64,000 nt of DNA, taken from assembly GCA_020725545.1 (NCBI GenBank), contig DYEV01000026.1, positions 1-64,000 of the forward strand, in the 5' to 3' direction. The stretch is from Desulfobacca sp. Lineage in GTDB: Bacteria > Desulfobacterota > Desulfobaccia > Desulfobaccales > Desulfobaccaceae. Positions 257 through 8,920 of this stretch are shown one piece after another (position 1 is the stretch's first letter; each line of letters opens with the position of its first letter). A program made the translations under genes and the position numbers. The notes beneath the pieces were generated by a model. The model worked only from the letters and a program-made list of their open reading frames with translations. It had not been told where the DNA came from and ran no database searches.

Positions 257-1018
257 CTAGTTGGCTGTCAGCGTCAACGTCCCCTGAAAGGAGTTATCGT
301 CGCACTCCGTCGGATCATGGTATGGCGTCTTGTGGCTGACCACCAGGAGCCATCTCCCCGGTTTGTCAATCTTTAGCGTATATTTCCCCTGGGCATCGGT
401 TTTGCCTTTGACGGCAAACATTTTTTGGGGATCCTGCCACTGGTCATAGGTCGCCTTGACTTCGGCCTCCGGGAACGGTTTCCCTTGGAAAAGCACCTGT
501 ACCGGCAGTTCCTCACCCACTTTCAGACCGGCCGGGGACTTCAAGGGAATGATCTCCAGGCTGGTCTGTCCCGGCCGGTCAAAGCCTGTGGCTGTCTGCC
601 CGATGGTCACTAAAGTCTTGGCGGCAAAATCGAAGCGAAAACAGTTGTTAGCCTCGGGCACCTCTTTTTTGCTGGCCATCTTCATGCCTTCGGGGGTACG
701 GCTGACGAAGCCCGGCTGCATCTGGGCCACCGCCAGATAGGTACCCGTCTGGGCCGGGTTGAACTCATAGCGGATTGCCGAGACCTGCCTGACCGGGACT
801 TCTTTGCCGTCGGGTCCCAGGACCTTGAAAAACTGCAGCCGCTCGGCCTTGAGCTCCTCATCTTTGGGGAACTTGTGACCGAAGCCGATCTCCACCTGGA
901 CCGGCTTGCCGGTCTCGGAAACCGCCGGTTCGGGGATGAGCCAGAAGAGATGGGCCGCCGCTGCCGTTGGCAGGCCCAGCATTAAAAAGGCTAACACGGC
1001 TGGAAACATTCTTTTCAT
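257..1018 (-). CDS. DUF4198 family periplasmic protein, TonB-receptor associated
   Basis: 253 residues with a cleavable signal peptide (hydrophobic stretch ending AAAA-H at about residue 22), so the protein is exported. The remainder fits the DUF4198 family: it begins with HLFWLIPEP after cleavage and ends in a carboxypeptidase-regulatory-like beta fold, GKTDAQGKYTLKIDKPGRWLL (about 205-225). Members are known next to nickel/cobalt uptake genes and TonB receptors, but their biochemical role is unsettled. The start is supported by GAGGAGGT six bases before ATG. It is the last gene of the minus-strand cluster with two TonB receptors and two exported tetrapyrrole methylases, so a periplasmic metal or metallo-tetrapyrrole handling role is an inference. 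Confidence 0.75.
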   Translation of the reverse strand: MKRMFPAVLAFLMLGLPTAAAAHLFWLIPEPAVSETGKPVQVEIGFGHKFPKDEELKAERLQFFKVLGPDGKEVPVRQVSAIRYEFNPAQTGTYLAVAQMQPGFVSRTPEGMKMASKKEVPEANNCFRFDFAAKTLVTIGQTATGFDRPGQTSLEIIPLKSPAGLKVGEELPVQVLFQGKPFPEAEVKATYDQWQDPQKMFAVKGKTDAQGKYTLKIDKPGRWLLVVSHKTPYHDPTECDDNSFQGTLTLTAN

Positions 1019-1098
1019 ATTACCTCCTCTGTATCGGGAATAGTGGTCAGTGGCCAGTGTTTAAAAAGAAAGAAACCCTTGCCCTTGATCTTTGACCT

Positions 1099-2016
1099 TT
1101 AATCATCATAGCCGGCCAGGGGTTCCACCCGGCTGCGGTAGGGGCTGCCTTCCAGGGCCCGGCCGATAATGATCATCCCCAGCCAGTTTTCCTTTTCAGG
1201 GGCGATCTTGGCCAGGATATCGGTCAGGGTGCCCTTAATGACCTTCTCCTTGTCAGTGAAACCCGCGTGGTAAACCACGGCGATGGGGAGATCGGCGGGA
1301 TAGTATTGCTGGAGCATGGGCACGAGATGCTGCATCTCCTCTAAGCCCATGAAAAAGACCATGGTGGTGGGATAATTAGCCAGAACCCGGGCGAGATCGT
1401 CTTGGCGCTGCTTGCCCCAGAAGAAAAAGGGCGAGGTCTGCAGGACAAAACGGGTGTCATAGGCCGGGATACTGGATTTCTTCAGGGCTGCCATGGCGGC
1501 TGAAAAGGCGCCTACGCCCGGGATAATCTCTACCTGCTGGGGTTCAAAACCTTCGATATACCAATGGGAGGGTCCGAAGAGGCAGGGATCGCCACTGTCC
1601 AGGAGGGCCACGGTCTTGCCCTGGGCCAATTTTTCTTTGATCTGGTTGACCAGGTCGTCACGGCGCTTGATGCGCTCCGCCTTAAAGGCCTTAACCTCCT
1701 CCTTGCCCAGGGACGGGATCTCCCGCCAGGGTTTGCCTTTGTAATCCCACATCCCCTGCCAGGGATCGGCCATGATGGGTTTGCCCTGCAGATATTGCTG
1801 GAAGAGGGCGGCGGTCTTCTGGTCGGTCAGAATAAAATCCGCCTGCTGCATGACCTCCAGGGCCCGCTGGGTGGCATGCTCCGGGCCGGCGGGGCCCGTG
1901 CCCACCACGTAGAAGGTGCCGGCCTTGAGTGCCCCCGCCTGGCTAGACATCGGCCAGAGGCAGAAAAGCCCCCACAGGAAAAAGATCAATCCTCGTCTCA
2001 CGCAACTGTGCATCAT
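1099..2016 (-). CDS. Exported tetrapyrrole (corrin/porphyrin) methylase-family protein A
   Basis: 305 residues. An N-terminal hydrophobic signal (residues about 8-28, ending SSQA) precedes a complete tetrapyrrole methylase fold: N-terminal loop FYVVGTGPAGPEHAT, LLDSGDPCLFG (about 142), EIIPGVGAFSAAMAAL (about 166) and a C-terminal VIKGTLTDI segment. Cytoplasmic family members (CobM, CbiF, SUMT) methylate tetrapyrroles with S-adenosylmethionine and have no signal peptide. Here export or membrane anchoring is predicted, which is odd because SAM is cytoplasmic. The glycine-rich loop has GPAGP in place of the usual GPGDP. AAGGGGGA lies 7 bases before ATG at 2016; a TTG just upstream is less likely. 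It follows receptor 1 by about 135 bases. It may bind rather than methylate a tetrapyrrole. Confidence 0.7.
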   Translation of the reverse strand: MMHSCVRRGLIFFLWGLFCLWPMSSQAGALKAGTFYVVGTGPAGPEHATQRALEVMQQADFILTDQKTAALFQQYLQGKPIMADPWQGMWDYKGKPWREIPSLGKEEVKAFKAERIKRRDDLVNQIKEKLAQGKTVALLDSGDPCLFGPSHWYIEGFEPQQVEIIPGVGAFSAAMAALKKSSIPAYDTRFVLQTSPFFFWGKQRQDDLARVLANYPTTMVFFMGLEEMQHLVPMLQQYYPADLPIAVVYHAGFTDKEKVIKGTLTDILAKIAPEKENWLGMIIIGRALEGSPYRSRVEPLAGYDD

Positions 2017-2154
2017 CAAAAATCCCCCTTAAACGTTTGCCAAATTCCTAACAGCCTCCGGTGGCGTGGCCGCTGCTCAAAAATACAGGCCAAGGCCTTT
2101 CTCCTTGAGAGGGTGCAGAAATAAGTAAGCAGTTGGACCGCAACCTTTAAAAAA

Positions 2155-4257
2155 TTAGAACTTGGTGCCGACGGTCACCCCGAAAGTCTGGCGCGGCATA
2201 TAAAACCCTTGCATCTCTTGGTAATGGGCCCCGGTGAGGTTGTTGCCGAAGACGTTTATCGACAGCTCCTGCTGCCAGAACTTGAATTTCTGCTCAAAGC
2301 CCAGGTTCAGGAGGGCATAGGAACCCAACCGCGGCCCCTTTTGGGAGCTGCGGGCACTGATGAACCGGGTATCCAACTGCAGCCAACCATCTTCCCAGAG
2401 CCGGATGCGACCGATGGCCTTGATCTTGTGTTTCGGATAGACCAGGGGCAGGTAATAGCTCCAGCCCTGTTGGAAGGGTGACTCCTTGGCGTCAAAGGCC
2501 TGATAACTGTAGGAAATCAGCCCCCGAAAGCGTTTTTCCAGGTTGACGGAGGCTTCTAACTCTACGCCGTACATCTTGACGCTGGGGATGTTGTAGAGGC
2601 AATTGCTACCCAAACCGGCTCCTGGAGCAGTAATACCGCTGTCGTTCAAAAAGTTGCTGATATCGTAGTAGTAAAATGAACTCCGTAAGTCTATGGGTTT
2701 AAAATTCTGGATGACGCCTATTTCATATTCCCAGGCGGTCTCCGGTTTTAAGACAGGATTTGCTCTGGACGCGCACCGCGCCCACCAGTAGTAGTCTCAG
2801 GGGCAGGGCAGGCGCATGGCCCGACTGATGGCCCCATAGAGGGCCGTGTTCTGGGCGGCCTGCCAGTCAATTTTGAAGCTGGGAAAGAAGCCCGATTCCC
2901 GCTGTTGCTTACCCTCAGTTGGGAAGGCCGGGGCCGGTTTCCCCGCCTCAAACCAGGCATAGTAGGTATCCATATCAATGGTGTAATAGCGCACCCCGTT
3001 GGTGAAGGTGAACTTACCCCATTTGGCCACATCCTGGAGATAAACCGATTTGACGTTATAAATAATATTATTGGTGGGCGGCGAACCCAGGAGCTGGTAA
3101 TCAAAACCCACGGTGAGATAGTTTTTGAAGTTTTCCCAGTCCACCAGCTTGACATCCTTATACTCCAGGATCAAGCCCTGGGTGACATCCCGGGTCTGGA
3201 CATTGGAAAAGACTGCCGGAGGTGGCAGGACGCGGGTGTAATAATGAATATCCCGGCGGCCATTGGTGGTGAACAGATGCACGCGGACGGTTCCCGGTCC
3301 CACCGGGACCATGAGGATGGCATCCAGATAATAGGTATCCTTATTCCACTGAGGGATGGGAAAGCCTGGAAGTTGCAGGGCAGTGGGCAGATGGCGCAGC
3401 ATATCTGCCGTGGCCAGAAAGGGTGGATAGTTGGGATCAAAACCGAATTGGGGGAGAGCCGGATCATTGACCACCGGAAAGCCGTAATTCACGTGGCTAT
3501 AGCGGGCCCCCAGCCACAGAGTGGCGTCAAACGGCAGGAAAAATTGCAGCCCGCCGGCAAAGTTATTATTCCATTGGAAGTTGTTGCGTAAAAAACCGTC
3601 GGTGGCTTGGCGACTGGCAGAAAAATGATACCCGACCCGTTCCCACAGGCCACCGTCCACCGAACCCTGCACAAAATTCGTATTGAAAGAGGCATAACCG
3701 GTGGAGAGGCTCACATCGGGCTTTAACTCTTTGGTCTTTTTTCCCTTTTTGGTAATGATATTGATGACGCCGCCGATGGCAAAGGGATGCAGGACCGAAT
3801 GCCCGCCCCGGATAATCTCCACCCGTTCGATGTCGTCCACGGTCAGGGTGGCCCAATCCACGATGTAGCGGCCGAAGTGGCCGGTGTGATTGATGCGCCG
3901 GCCGTCAATCTCCACTACCATACGGCCTTCACTCAAGCCCCGGATGGCCACTTCATCGCCGGGGCTGGCCAACATGGGATTTTGACGCAACACGTCAATG
4001 CCGCCGATTTCTTGCAGCACATCCTCTAAGGTGCGCAAGAGTCCGGCCCGCCGGAACTGGTCAATATGGATGACCGTCTTTTCGGTGGTGATCTCCACCC
4101 CCGGCTGGGGGGCCATGATGGTGATCTGTTCCAAAGCGACGCTCTCTCCGGACGTGGTGGTTGCCTCCGGTGGCTTCTCCAAGGGAGCAGCCCAGACTGG
4201 CCATACCAAGGCCAAGAGCAGTCCTGTGATACCCAGACTTCCCCAAAAGGCACGCAT
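2155..4257 (-). CDS. TonB-dependent receptor 1, interrupted by one in-frame UGA (candidate selenocysteine or nonsense mutation)
   Basis: The frame is open from 4257 to 2155 except for one TGA at 2797-2799. Reading through it gives a 700-residue outer-membrane receptor with residue 487 encoded by UGA. Visible parts are a signal peptide (MRAFWGSLGITGLLL...), a plug domain (about 40-170, with LEDVLQEIGGIDV, VEIDGRRIN, VEIIRGG and GGVINIITKKG), then a 22-strand-type barrel ending in MPRQTFGVTVGTKF. Sequence on both sides of the UGA is normal receptor sequence (AISRAMRLPCP then DYYWWARC), and ANPVLKPETAWEYEIG follows as expected. The paralogue in this window has TLPESYWF at this place. A hairpin with a GGU loop follows the UGA. 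The start at 4257 is chosen because AAGGAGGG precedes it and the signal peptide begins there. Ligand unknown; tetrapyrrole or metal chelate is inferred from neighbours. Confidence 0.75.
2765..2799 (-). promoter_or_regulatory. SECIS-like hairpin immediately after the in-frame UGA of receptor 1
   Basis: On the minus strand, UGA (2797-2799) is followed after 8 bases by CUGG, a small internal loop, GCGC, loop GGU, GCGC, and CCAG. This gives a 4-bp lower and a 4-bp upper stem. The apical loop begins 20 bases after the UGA and starts with G. Bacterial SECIS elements are known to lie directly downstream of the UGA, with an apical loop about 16-37 bases away and a G in its first two positions; the E. 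coli fdhF loop also carries GGU. GC-rich DNA forms such hairpins by chance, so this is a candidate only. Confidence 0.35.
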
Positions 4258-4364
4258 AGCTTGTCCCTCCTTGTTGAAAAAGTTTGAAGAAACAAGCCAC
4301 CACCCTTGCCTGGACCGCCGGCGATGTGATACATACAGACAAGGGGGTGGCCCCATCACCCTCC

Positions 4365-4409
4365 CCAAGACCGGTGGCTCTCTCTCTATCCCCGCCGGTC
4401 TTGGTTTTT
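4365..4409. repeat. 10-bp perfect inverted repeat in the leader of receptor 1
   Basis: CCAAGACCGG (4365-4374) and CCGGTCTTGG (4395-4404) form a perfect stem with a 20-base loop, and TTTTT follows on the plus strand (4405-4409). In the plus direction it looks like an intrinsic terminator, although no plus-strand gene ends here. In the minus direction it is a stem in the 207-base gap between methylase B and receptor 1. The loop contains CTCTC and CCCC blocks also seen in the structured leader of receptor 2. Confidence 0.45.
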
Positions 4410-4464
4410 AGTGGTCAGTGATCAGAGATACGAATCGCTGGCACCACTACCCTGAACCTCAATA

Positions 4465-5337
4465 TTACTCATTCAAGACAAAGGCCGGTCCCGTCAGAGC
4501 CGGGCCGACGATGATCATCCCCATCCATTTCTCCTTTTCATCCACCTGGCCCAGAATATCCGCCAGGGTGCCCTGGACCACTTTTTCTTTATCAGGATAG
4601 CCGGCATAATAGACCACGGCGATGGGCAGGGTGGCCGGATGCAACTTCTTCAGGGTGTCTACCAGCTCCGGTAGTTGCGCCAGCCCCATGTAGAAGACAT
4701 AGGTGCCGGGGAACTGGGCCAGGGCCTTGGCCAAGTCATCGTGGTCCTGCTTCCCGAAAAAGCTGAACGGGGCACTGAGCAACACATAGCGGGCACCACC
4801 GCCGGAGCTGGAGCGTTTCAAGGCGGCAAAGGAGGCGGTCAGAGCGCCGACGCCGGGGACGATCTCCAACTGGTCGTCGCTGAGGCCTTCCAGGAGCCAG
4901 AAGCCCCGGGGGTAGATGGTGGGGTCGCCTTCGTCCAAGAGGACGACGTTCTTCCCTTGAACCAGCATGGCCTTAATCTGGCGCACATAGGCGTCCCGCT
5001 CTTTGGCCTTTAAAGCCACAATTTTTAGCCGATCTTCCGGTTTGTAGGTATGGAGTTCCTTCATCCAGACCTTGCCTTCGTGCCACCATAATTGGGGCCA
5101 GGGGTCTTCCACCTTTTTTCCGGCGATGTATTTGTCCACTTTTTTCGCCGCCTGGGGGTGCGAGAGCACCAGATCGGCCTTCTGCATAGTTTCGATGGCC
5201 TGCAGGGTAAGATACTTGGGATCGCCGGGGCCCGTGCTGACCAGGTAAAATTTGCCGGGCGTGGCCGCCGCCCCCGGGACTGCATTGCTGAGGGCCAGGG
5301 CCAGGACCAGGAAAAGGTGCCAAAGCAGTTGGTGCAT
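4465..5337 (-). CDS. Exported tetrapyrrole (corrin/porphyrin) methylase-family protein B
   Basis: About 290 residues. A signal peptide (LLWHLFLVLALALSNAVPG, ending AAA at about 25) precedes a textbook tetrapyrrole methylase domain: KFYLVSTGPGDPKYLTLQA (about 29-47), LLDEGDPTIYPRGFW (about 137), EIVPGVGALTASFAAL (about 160) and DKEKVVQGTLADI near residue 260. There is no methionine between the hydrophobic stretch and the SAM-binding loop, so the signal must be translated. ATG at 5337 is preferred because AAAGGA sits about 10 bases upstream; the ATG at 5349 is directly abutted by that motif. It is a diverged paralogue of protein A at 1099-2016, and each follows a TonB receptor. Known relatives are cytoplasmic corrin methyltransferases; a periplasmic or membrane-anchored role is unexplained. 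Confidence 0.75.
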   Translation of the reverse strand: MHQLLWHLFLVLALALSNAVPGAAATPGKFYLVSTGPGDPKYLTLQAIETMQKADLVLSHPQAAKKVDKYIAGKKVEDPWPQLWWHEGKVWMKELHTYKPEDRLKIVALKAKERDAYVRQIKAMLVQGKNVVLLDEGDPTIYPRGFWLLEGLSDDQLEIVPGVGALTASFAALKRSSSGGGARYVLLSAPFSFFGKQDHDDLAKALAQFPGTYVFYMGLAQLPELVDTLKKLHPATLPIAVVYYAGYPDKEKVVQGTLADILGQVDEKEKWMGMIIVGPALTGPAFVLNE

Positions 5338-5367
5338 GTGGTTATCCATCCTTTCTGAACAGTCAAA

Positions 5368-5418
5368 AGCGCCAGCTGAAGTTCCGGCGTTAAGAGCGCC
5401 AGCTAAAGCTGGCGATTA
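5368..5418. repeat. Two tandem copies of a short hairpin-forming repeat
   Basis: AGCGCCAGCT occurs at 5368-5377 and again at 5395-5404. The second copy continues as AAAGCTGGCG and makes an 8-bp hairpin (CGCCAGCT/AGCTGGCG); the first copy is a degenerate version. They fill most of the gap between receptor 2 and methylase B and may act as a REP-like transcript-processing or stabilising element. Confidence 0.5.
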
Positions 5419-5437
5419 CAGGCGGTGGTTCAAGCCA

Positions 5438-7586
5438 CTAGTAGCGCAATTGGATGCCCCCAAAAAACGTCTGCGTCGGCATGGGATAGCCATAGCTTTC
5501 CATGTATTTGACGCCGAAGAGATTGTCCACGCCCGCGTACAGGTAGCCCGTGAAACCGCGCCAGTTGGCCACCGGATAGCGGCCTTCCATGGTGGTGGTG
5601 ATAAATTCTTTCATAAAGCTATAATTAACCCCAGTGATGACATTGCGAGCGACATTGACCTGGGGTTGGGAGCGCTGGGACACCAGCCGCAGATAGATCT
5701 TGGCTTCGGCGCCGTTGTCAGCCCGGTAGCGGAGGCCGAGATTGGCCTTATGTTCTGGCAGTTCGGTGAGCCGGTTGACGGTGAGCCCCAGGGGGTCGCC
5801 GCCGGCCGCGGTCTGCTGATAGGAGTAATTAGCCCAGGCCGTCAGGTTATACGGCAGGGGCAGTGTGCCTTCCACCTCGACCCCGCGGAATTGCACCAGG
5901 TTTATATTGTAGACCACCCGGCTGGGGGCAAAACCGAAAACGGTGCGGATGTAATTGTTGATGTCATAGTAATAGGCCCGGAGCCGGAGCTGCGCCTCCC
6001 ACGGCAGTTTCTGGGTGATGCCGGCCTCGTATTGCATGCCGAATTCCGGGGAAAGGAAGGCCTTGCGCAGGGGCGACTGATACCCGGCGGTGAACCAGTA
6101 GGATTCGGGCAGGGTGGGGAAGCGGGTGACATAATTGGTGGAGAGATAGGCCTCCGTGGTCTCAGTGGGCTTAATTGTCAGGGTACAGCGAGGTCCCAGG
6201 GCATCGGCCCGAGCCCCGGGCTGCAAGAGGCCGAAATTGTCAATGGAAGGTGCGGCGTTGTAGTAATCATAGCGCAACCCCAGATAGAGTTCGAAGTATT
6301 TCCAGAAGGGAATGGCGGCATCGATAAAGCCGCCGTGGGTTTTCAGGGCATTCCGGGGGCCGGAGGAGCCGGCCAGCATGGTGCGCAGATAGGCCGGGTC
6401 CAGATCAGTGTAAGCCGTCTGGCCATAACCGGCGTAAACTCCTTCCAGCCCAAACCCCAGACGGATATTATTGGGGGTCTGGCGGATCTTGAAATTCCAC
6501 CCCCAGGTGTCCTCATCCCAACTGTCCCGTTTGCCGATGATGTGGCTGGGGTTGTTGAGGGCGTAGATGGTATCATTGCGAGTGGCCTGGAAATAGAAGA
6601 GGCGAAAGACCGCATAGCCCTCCCAGAAATTCTGTTTGGCCTCCAGGTCCCACTCCCAGCGTTGGGTGCGGGAATAGCTGTTATCGCCGAAGAAAAAGCC
6701 TCTGGTAGGCAGGCTGCCATCCCGATACTGGATGGGCGGGCCATAGAGGCCGTCGGGCAGACTGGCCGGGTAGTCGGGATTAAAAAAAGGGGAGCCGGGC
6801 AGGTTGGCCACAATCCAGCCGGTCTTTTGGGTGATATAGCGCACTTCCCCGGAAATGCTCAGGTCAAAGGGAGTGGTGTACGTGAGGCCGGTGTTGAAAT
6901 GGAGGCGGTCTTTGACCCAGTTATTCCGCAAGTATTGGTCGGAGTCACCGAAGCTGAAGCCCAGCACGTATTGCACCGGTCCCACGCTGTTGCTGTGCAG
7001 GAGCCGGTAGTTTTGGGTGTTCCAGCTGCCCCAGTAGGTGTCCAGATAGAGTTTGGGTTCTTTGCTGCCCCGGATGGTATTGATGGCAATAACCCCACCC
7101 AGAGTATTGGGGTACTCGGCGGAGAGGCCGCCGCGGATTGACCTCCAGCCTTTCCAGATCAGCCAGGGTGATGGTGGACCAATCCACGTAAAAGCCGCCC
7201 TTGACCCCGGCGCCTTTCCAGGTGCGGCCGTTGATATACACCTGATAGCGTGACTCATCAAAGCCCCGGAGGCGCATCTGAGAATTCTGCACTCCCAGCA
7301 ACGACCGCCGGGTCAGGTCAATGCCGGACTGCTCCCTCATAAAGCCCGGGGTGTTCATGTACGGGCCCTCGCTGATATCCTCCTTGGTAATGATACTGCT
7401 GGTGGCGGCTTTTTCTTTATGGGCCAGCACCTCGATCTGGGGGATCTCCAGGGCCTTGTCGGCGGCGGGCGTTGTCGTGGCGGCGGCGGCCTCGACGGCC
7501 GGTTCCTCCCCGGCGACCGGCATCGAGAAGAACAGGCAGCCGAGAACTGCCCAGGTGATCAGGCTGCCGTACTTGGAGCGTAACAT
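5438..7586 (-). pseudogene. TonB-dependent receptor 2, frameshifted near codon 149
   Basis: About 715 residues if corrected. Signal peptide (ITWAVLGCLFFSMPVAG), a TonB-box-like segment LEIPQIEVLAHKE, then the plug: SGIDLTRRSLLGVQNSQMRL, YINGRTW and TLADLERLEV. One extra A at 7138/7139 then shifts the frame; the expected continuation IRGGLSAEYPNTLGGVIAIN is in the +1 frame and runs as a clean barrel to MPTQTFFGGIQLRY. The base change sits in GGTCAATCC, not in a slippery heptamer, so a real indel or a base-call error is more likely than programmed frameshifting. AGGAGGATGGGAGA precedes ATG at 7586. First gene of the receptor/methylase cluster; ligand unknown. Its C-terminal half resembles receptor 1 in layout, with TLPESYWF where receptor 1 has the UGA. 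Confidence 0.75.
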
Positions 7587-8043: not shown

Positions 8044-8920
8044 TCAGCCATTATGAAGGGAGGCAAGACCGTAGTTGCCGGCCTTGAACGCCCCATGATT
8101 TTGTGCACGACAGTGTCGTTGGCGAGAGCCAGGTCCAGTTGCCAGATGGCAAAAGCCCTGCATGATAGCCCGGCAAGGTGGGGAGAGGACGCCATCTTCA
8201 TTGATCAACGGCTTGCCCGGCTCCTGCAAACCACCGTCCAGATCAAGGACGAAAAGATTGGTCCAGGATCGCCGCGGCTCGGAGGTTGAGGAGGGTGGCA
8301 AATTGACCAGCAAAGGAGAAGGTATCATCTTCCCCCGCGGCGCTGGACCGCACTGCCAACTGTTGGGCTGCTGCGGTTTTGGCCCCGGCCAGGGCCGGGG
8401 GGACTTCTGCGGCCTGGATGAGGGCGCGGACTTGTTCGCTCACCTGCTTCAAGCTCTGCAGGTCATTGATATCGGCCTAATGCAGAATGGTCTCAATCTG
8501 GCCACTGAGACCGGTGTCTGTCAGAAAACTCTGGTAAGCACTGGCAATAATGACAAAGCCCTGAGGGGTGGGCAAGTGCAGGCGATTACGGATTTCCCCC
8601 AGGTTGGCCATCGTGGCGCCGCAACTGGCGGCCATCGCCCGGGTCAGTTGCTGCAGCCAGAGAATCCGTGGCATGGCGGGGACGGATGGGCCAGTCTTGA
8701 GAGTCAGGAAGGTCTGACTGAGGATGTCGTTATAACTGAGGTCTAACTGACGGTAGCGATCCTGGCCCAGATGGTGGAGAGTTTCGATCATCGGGGCCAG
8801 GGCACTGGTCAGGGTCTGCACCTGGGTCTCTATAGCCGGTATCAAAAAGAAAATCCCCAGAGGCTTTCTCCGCCATATCCGCCATGGTGGCTAGGGCCGC
8901 GTTATTGTTATCCAACAAGC
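8044..8920 (-). pseudogene. Remnant of a PEP/pyruvate-binding (PEP synthase N-terminal) protein
   Basis: Several minus-strand frames hold consecutive pieces of one protein: LDNNNAALATMADMAEKASG (near 8900), then a frame shift to the segment at 8477-8845 (ETQVQTLTSALAPM ... PTPQGFVIIASAYQSFL), then a stop and a further piece around 8243-8452 with AVRSSAAGEDDTFSFAGQF. The last motif is the ATP-grasp signature of the PPDK/PEP synthase N-terminal domain. At least one stop and two frameshifts are needed, and the 3' part of the domain is missing. Intact homologues sit beside sensor kinase, UspA, TIGR02186 and TauE genes in sulfate reducers, matching this order. Confidence 0.65.

Follow-up and report, generated by a model that had tools for sequence, protein, structure and literature searches.

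Organization of the locus

The stretch of DNA studied here (64,000 nucleotides, hereafter the window) begins at position 1 of its contig in a Desulfobacca-like genome of 2.94 Mb and 38 contigs, and carries near its start two tandem modules, each made of a TonB-dependent receptor and a protein of the tetrapyrrole methylase fold (TP_methylase). In minus-strand sense the genes follow in the order receptor 7586-5438, methylase 5349-4465 (the upstream methylase), receptor 4257-2155, methylase 2019-1099 (the downstream methylase) and DUF4198 gene 1018-257. A first-pass annotation had read the locus as tandem receptor/methylase pairs followed by DUF4198 on one strand. Gene calls and matches to PF00590 and PF10670 agree with this arrangement; the observation was real, but a selenocysteine codon, a frameshift and the fusions described below had been overlooked.

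Two of the six TonB plug domains of the whole genome lie at this locus, together with one of its two DUF4198 genes, a clustering that exceeds chance. On the plus strand, positions 1-63 read as the C-terminus of a transposase. Because the contig ends there with this transposase-like sequence, the operon may have been cut at the contig end by an insertion element.

A conserved, predicted selenocysteine codon in the downstream receptor

Read with the standard code, neither receptor gene seems intact: the downstream gene is interrupted by an in-frame TGA and the upstream gene by a frameshift of one base. The downstream gene (2155-4257, minus strand) is one receptor gene and not two; its halves join at the TGA (2797-2799, minus strand) within LPCP-U-DYYWWARCAS, giving 700 codons including the TGA, and the product read through this codon scores 1082 bits against NF049947 (TonB_dep_PCPU, cut-off 800). 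Every homologue has the TGA, in the context LPCP-U-DYYW, in the same position, and 27 of the 29 nucleotides from it onward are invariant across 13 genomes, synonymous sites included. A hairpin resembling a selenocysteine insertion sequence (SECIS) is predicted just 3' of the TGA (2767-2784, minus strand); it is marked by nucleotide conservation and by the predicted fold, whose energy is ordinary compared with shuffled sequences (z −0.34). The window's genome encodes SelB (388 bits) and tRNA-Sec (80.5 bits). Because a conserved TGA, SelB, tRNA-Sec and a conserved SECIS-like stretch occur together, 2155-4257 is predicted to encode a selenocysteine receptor, with the TGA as its conserved selenocysteine codon. 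A fold model of the product resembles TonB receptors, with PqqU, BtuB and ZnuD among the nearest solved folds. At a related locus (L080), a tRNA-Sec gene (8304-8391) lies about 0.7 kb upstream of a PCPU selenocysteine receptor.

The upstream receptor (5438-7586, minus strand) has no selenocysteine. One extra base near 7135-7142 puts its plug (6945-7586) and barrel (5438-7261) in different frames; same-genus relatives (loci L028 and L033) keep this receptor intact, and the frameshift may be either a sequencing error or the mark of a young pseudogene. A split methylase gene with an in-frame TGA in the same-genus genome G024 (L041:5202-5903) was considered as a possible methylase selenoprotein and rejected, since its broken motifs show a decayed pseudogene.

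When 11 selenocysteine receptors were aligned with seven receptors of sister modules that lack selenocysteine, exactly four columns were always Cys or Sec in the former (C485, U487, C495 and C553; 11/11), and none of the seven others had a Cys at any of these positions. In the receptor model, which is of moderate confidence (pLDDT 63.5), C485, U487 and C495 lie in one long loop and C553 in the next long loop on the same side. Judged by the short turns on the opposite side of the model, these loops probably face the outside of the cell.

The methylases carry signal-like N-termini

The known tetrapyrrole methylases are cytoplasmic enzymes that use S-adenosylmethionine (SAM). The downstream methylase (1099-2019, minus strand; probable start ATG 2016), which belongs to the selenocysteine-receptor type, and the upstream methylase (4465-5349, minus strand), which belongs to the non-selenocysteine-receptor type, score 130.8 and 131 bits against PF00590, where the gathering cut-off is 27.8. 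Neither approaches the specific families: they reach just 88.3 and 73.2 bits against the precorrin-4 C11-methyltransferase family CobM/CbiF (TIGR01465, cut-off 259.65) and 82.1 and 77.9 bits against SUMT (TIGR01469, cut-off 185), and 1099-2019 falls under every NCBIfam methylase cut-off. In a tblastn search of plasmids the best matches were 27-32% identical and mostly annotated as ordinary CobA/CysG. The AlphaFold2 model of 4465-5349 (pLDDT 81) has CobM, CbiF, CysG and NirE as its nearest folds in the PDB.

Both proteins have a signal-like hydrophobic N-terminus, as had been noticed at first reading; that of 1099-2019 ends in SSQA/G. The same holds for all complete family methylases of the order, often with K/R before the hydrophobic stretch and an A-x-A-like site after it. 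The best 12-residue segment has a mean Kyte-Doolittle value of 2.1-3.2 in this signal-like group and of −0.25 to 1.23 in the signal-less group described below. In addition, one open frame of 520 residues at another locus (L076:2413-3978) joins a signal peptide, DUF4198 (136.8 bits) and TP_methylase (144.8 bits), and it adjoins a receptor above the FCYXU cut-off with a TGA of its own. This fusion puts the methylase domain behind an exported domain and therefore speaks for export of the methylase. The signal-like ends and the fusion together strengthen the export already proposed in the first-pass annotation, and the window methylases are predicted to be exported proteins.

It is very improbable that the hydrophobic N-terminus is instead a membrane anchor or an unused extension of an ordinary tetrapyrrole methylase in, or facing, the cytoplasm. 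The claim that no start codon lies between the hydrophobic stretch and the SAM-binding loop is correct for 4465-5349 and incorrect for 1099-2019, which has an internal ATG (1950-1948) after the hydrophobic stretch, and six homologues have no signal at all. However, no ribosome-binding site is visible at this ATG, the A-x-A-like sites and the DUF4198 fusion argue against a cytoplasmic protein, and ordinary CobA-HemD, CbiF and CbiL without signals are encoded elsewhere in the window's genome. The earlier alternative of a membrane-tethered enzyme on the cytoplasmic face is likewise not supported. Family members do not sit in cobalamin operons; their neighbours are TonB receptors, DUF4198 and APC permeases, or FecCD.

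Receptors and methylases are paired across genomes

A search of 395 genomes of the phylum yielded 10 PCPU receptors over the cut-off and one partial receptor at a contig edge, and in all 11 cases a TP_methylase gene lies downstream within about 300 bases. Neighbours were counted within 5 kb of 58 non-cytosolic members (a few without an individual signal check) and six cytosolic members. Near the non-cytosolic members we found a TonB receptor in 48/58, DUF4198 in 30/58, an APC permease in 29/58 and FecCD in 0/58; near the cytosolic members the counts were 6/6 for TonB, 6/6 for FecCD and zero for both APC and DUF4198. The suspicion that receptor and methylase act as a pair is supported by these counts. 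Of six FCYXU-like receptors, five have tandem or fused methylases next to them; the one in genome G211 has none. On these genomic grounds, selenocysteine as well as ordinary TonB receptors are coupled to an exported protein of predicted TP_methylase fold, a link that is real, conserved and apparently undescribed.

The exported TP_methylase occurs alone, fused to DUF4198, in tandem (sometimes lipoprotein-like) or fused to molybdopterin-oxidoreductase-like domains. The last form is seen at loci L136-L144 and L149, several with CxxCH, beside TonB receptors and APC permeases. Matches of 550-630 amino acids were considered as CobA-HemD fusions and rejected, as they are tandem methylases or molybdopterin-oxidoreductase fusions. 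At L094:1404-3607 an exported TP_methylase adjoins a TupA-like (tungstate) binding protein, and the module at L079 includes a gene for a TrmO-type tRNA methyltransferase (L079:12088-12588), flanked by DUF4198 and an ABC binding protein.

We also considered that every selenocysteine receptor type pairs with a methylase and rejected it. Three weaker receptor matches are, or closely resemble, the CU type (both of those scanned pass the CU cut-off) and have no methylase at the locus; their loci instead hold an SsuA/SaoX-like binding protein split by a TGA, together with a SaoP-like permease. In three genomes (L121:11028-11993, L123:4254-5366 and also L122) the TGA interrupts these binding proteins at one and the same position, and a double-cubane reductase gene lies near the one at L121. 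They are probably selenocysteine binding proteins of another uptake system.

The CU-type loci bear on a different view of the Cys/Sec set, namely that the module serves to detoxify or scavenge a toxic soft metal or an organometal, with the three Cys and one Sec as a trap, and does not feed the cell with a tetrapyrrole or nickel chelate. The invariant Cys-Pro-Sec with two further Cys would suit such a site, and the SaoX and SaoP families are reported for organometal chemistry (PMC13188914). However, the loci with SaoX/SaoP-like proteins lack the TP_methylase, the SaoX/SaoP scores are under the cut-off, and among those neighbours of PCPU modules that were annotated, which are not all of them, none was recognised as a mer, ars or sao gene. 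We regard this view as unlikely.

Export was lost twice, each time beside an ABC importer

In a maximum-likelihood tree, 1099-2019 falls in an exported clade linked to PCPU receptors (support 98/95). The cytosolic members are nested in this clade as two distinct groups, indicating two losses of export, and each signal-less group adjoins a FecCD ABC importer. One of the groups branches beside the exported member of L081, whose locus also has FecCD, a binding protein and FmdE. The first-pass annotation had reasoned that homologues without the hydrophobic end in ordinary cobalamin operons would speak against an exported family. Signal-less homologues do exist, and they adjoin FecCD/substrate-binding-protein importers and TonB receptors; none is in such an operon. 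Because the signal was lost twice, each time beside a FecCD importer, the location of the methylase seems to follow the compartment in which the imported ligand arrives. This evidence, from two genera, is suggestive and not proof.

The SAM pocket is altered in the core clade

The SAM contacts and the catalytic and substrate residues of NirE (PMC4731766) were mapped onto the family through the SUMT of the window's own genome. The core clade comprised 35 members (29 exported and six cytosolic). The position of T133 is Gly in 34/35 (28/29 exported, 6/6 cytosolic), that of D105 is Asn in 12/35 (six exported, 6/6 cytosolic), K102, E114 and E115 are replaced in all 35, and R111 is replaced in 20 (14/29 exported, 6/6 cytosolic). 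In both window methylases K102, E114 and E115 are replaced and T133 is Gly, while D105, A134 and M186 are kept; R111 is replaced in one of the two, and Y185 is kept in 4465-5349 and is Phe in 1099-2019. Since even the members that lie amid cytoplasmic SAM have lost these contacts, the core clade probably has no SAM methyltransferase activity. The earlier suggestion of a methylase fold serving as a chelate binder, and not as a standard enzyme, gains support, since the hydroxyl at T133 and most of the catalytic residues of SUMT are lost. The wider exported relatives (tandem, molybdopterin-fused and DUF4198-fused) retain Asp and Ser at the SAM-contact positions and may still be able to bind SAM.

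This retention bears on the possibility, which we consider doubtful, that the exported protein is a working periplasmic SAM methyltransferase acting on an imported chelate, with the APC permease exchanging SAM and S-adenosylhomocysteine across the inner membrane. The permease is found close to half of the non-cytosolic members and to no cytosolic one, and the complete same-genus genome G023 has two close APC paralogues, both of them located in methylase modules. On the other hand, a periplasmic SAM supply is not established, the window's clade has lost the hydroxyl at T133 together with most SUMT-type catalytic residues, and these permeases best match amino-acid exchangers and may simply import a product. 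A broader form, in which the wider exported family methylates imported metal-tetrapyrroles with SAM in the periplasm, using a dedicated APC-type SAM/SAH exchanger and coupled to selenocysteine receptors, is quite unlikely; if true, it would extend a SAM methyltransferase pathway beyond the bacterial cytoplasm.

A proposed periplasmic handler of an imported metal chelate

What may the ligand be? In the DUF4198 family, one member of solved structure binds Ni2+ (Kd 18 nM) via its N-terminal His and has TonB receptors and NikR as neighbours (PMC12537917). Inspection of the translation of the window's DUF4198 protein (257-1018, minus strand; PF10670, 164.6 bits) revealed a signal peptide followed by the same mature N-terminal His (AAAA/HLFW cleavage). 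Some loci also hold FmdE, a FecB-like binding protein or a TupA-like protein. Together, this nickel-binding family and these neighbours suggest a transition metal, with nickel or cobalt as the first candidates.

We propose that the operon consists of two tandem uptake modules with a periplasmic, probably non-methylating binder or handler of an imported metal chelate, a reading to which we give a probability of about 0.5. Outside the cell, the receptor would capture a molecule that contains a metal, in the selenocysteine receptor probably through the three Cys and one Sec on two neighbouring extracellular loops, and TonB would drive this molecule on to the periplasm. The exported protein of TP_methylase fold would bind it there in the pocket between the protein's own domains and hold, strip or hand on the metal or ligand, with the putatively nickel-binding DUF4198 protein as its partner. 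Where a lineage takes up the ligand through a FecCD transporter, the protein without a signal would act in the cytoplasm. The gene order, the conserved TGA, the Cys/Sec set, the signal-like N-termini, the fusion, the double relocation and the altered SAM-site residues can be read from the sequences, whereas ligand binding, metal content, lack of methylation and the direction of transport are what we infer.

Several observations weigh against this proposal. No riboswitch was found at the operon at the gathering threshold, and no NikR site either, NikR-like matches numbering 9 against 47 in shuffled sequence. In the core clade, the equivalents of Y185, M186 and A134 are mostly retained and D105 is kept in 23/29 exported members, and the wider relatives keep their Asp and Ser. 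Furthermore, there are just two relocation events, and some exported members (L079, L081) lie near ABC parts.

Comparison with known systems

Searches of the open-access literature turned up no account of tetrapyrrole methylases that are exported and paired with TonB receptors. Selenocysteine TonB receptors are already known (PMC12013277, FCYXU by deep-Sep; review PMC13188914); the window's receptor 2155-4257 is a member of NCBIfam NF049947 (PCPU), and the DUF4198-methylase fusion adjoins a member of NF049945 (FCYXU). The passages found in both sources treat the receptor as a selenoprotein alone and name no partner, system or ligand. The present data tie a widespread branch of exported methylases to TonB receptors, including these two known types, and give selenocysteine receptors of these types a first candidate partner, and therefore a route to the ligand. 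From the two shifts between periplasm and cytoplasm one would predict that the imported molecule itself is what the protein acts on, a prediction open to direct test.

CobM/CbiF and SUMT (CobA, CysG, NirE) share the PF00590 fold and are the nearest PDB matches, but the present proteins are predicted to be exported, lie far under the family cut-offs, have altered SAM-contact and catalytic residues, and are found outside the cobalamin operon. CbiK is periplasmic. The Desulfovibrio cbiK-cbiL-btuCDF cluster (PMC545781) combines tetrapyrrole enzymes and a B12-type ABC importer in one locus; it differs in its control by a B12 riboswitch and in that its methylase is regarded as a cobalamin-synthesis enzyme. 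The nickel-binding DUF4198 protein (PMC12537917) is alike in family, signal peptide, N-terminal His and TonB neighbourhood, whereas DUF4198 here is coupled, and once fused, to TP_methylase. In Caulobacter CciT-CciO (PMC11870441), a TonB receptor likewise depends strictly on a dedicated neighbouring enzyme-like protein. Compared with these systems, the locus is a variant of TonB-dependent uptake that is apparently undescribed, and it points to an undescribed uptake of a metal-containing molecule in sulfate-reducing bacteria and their relatives.

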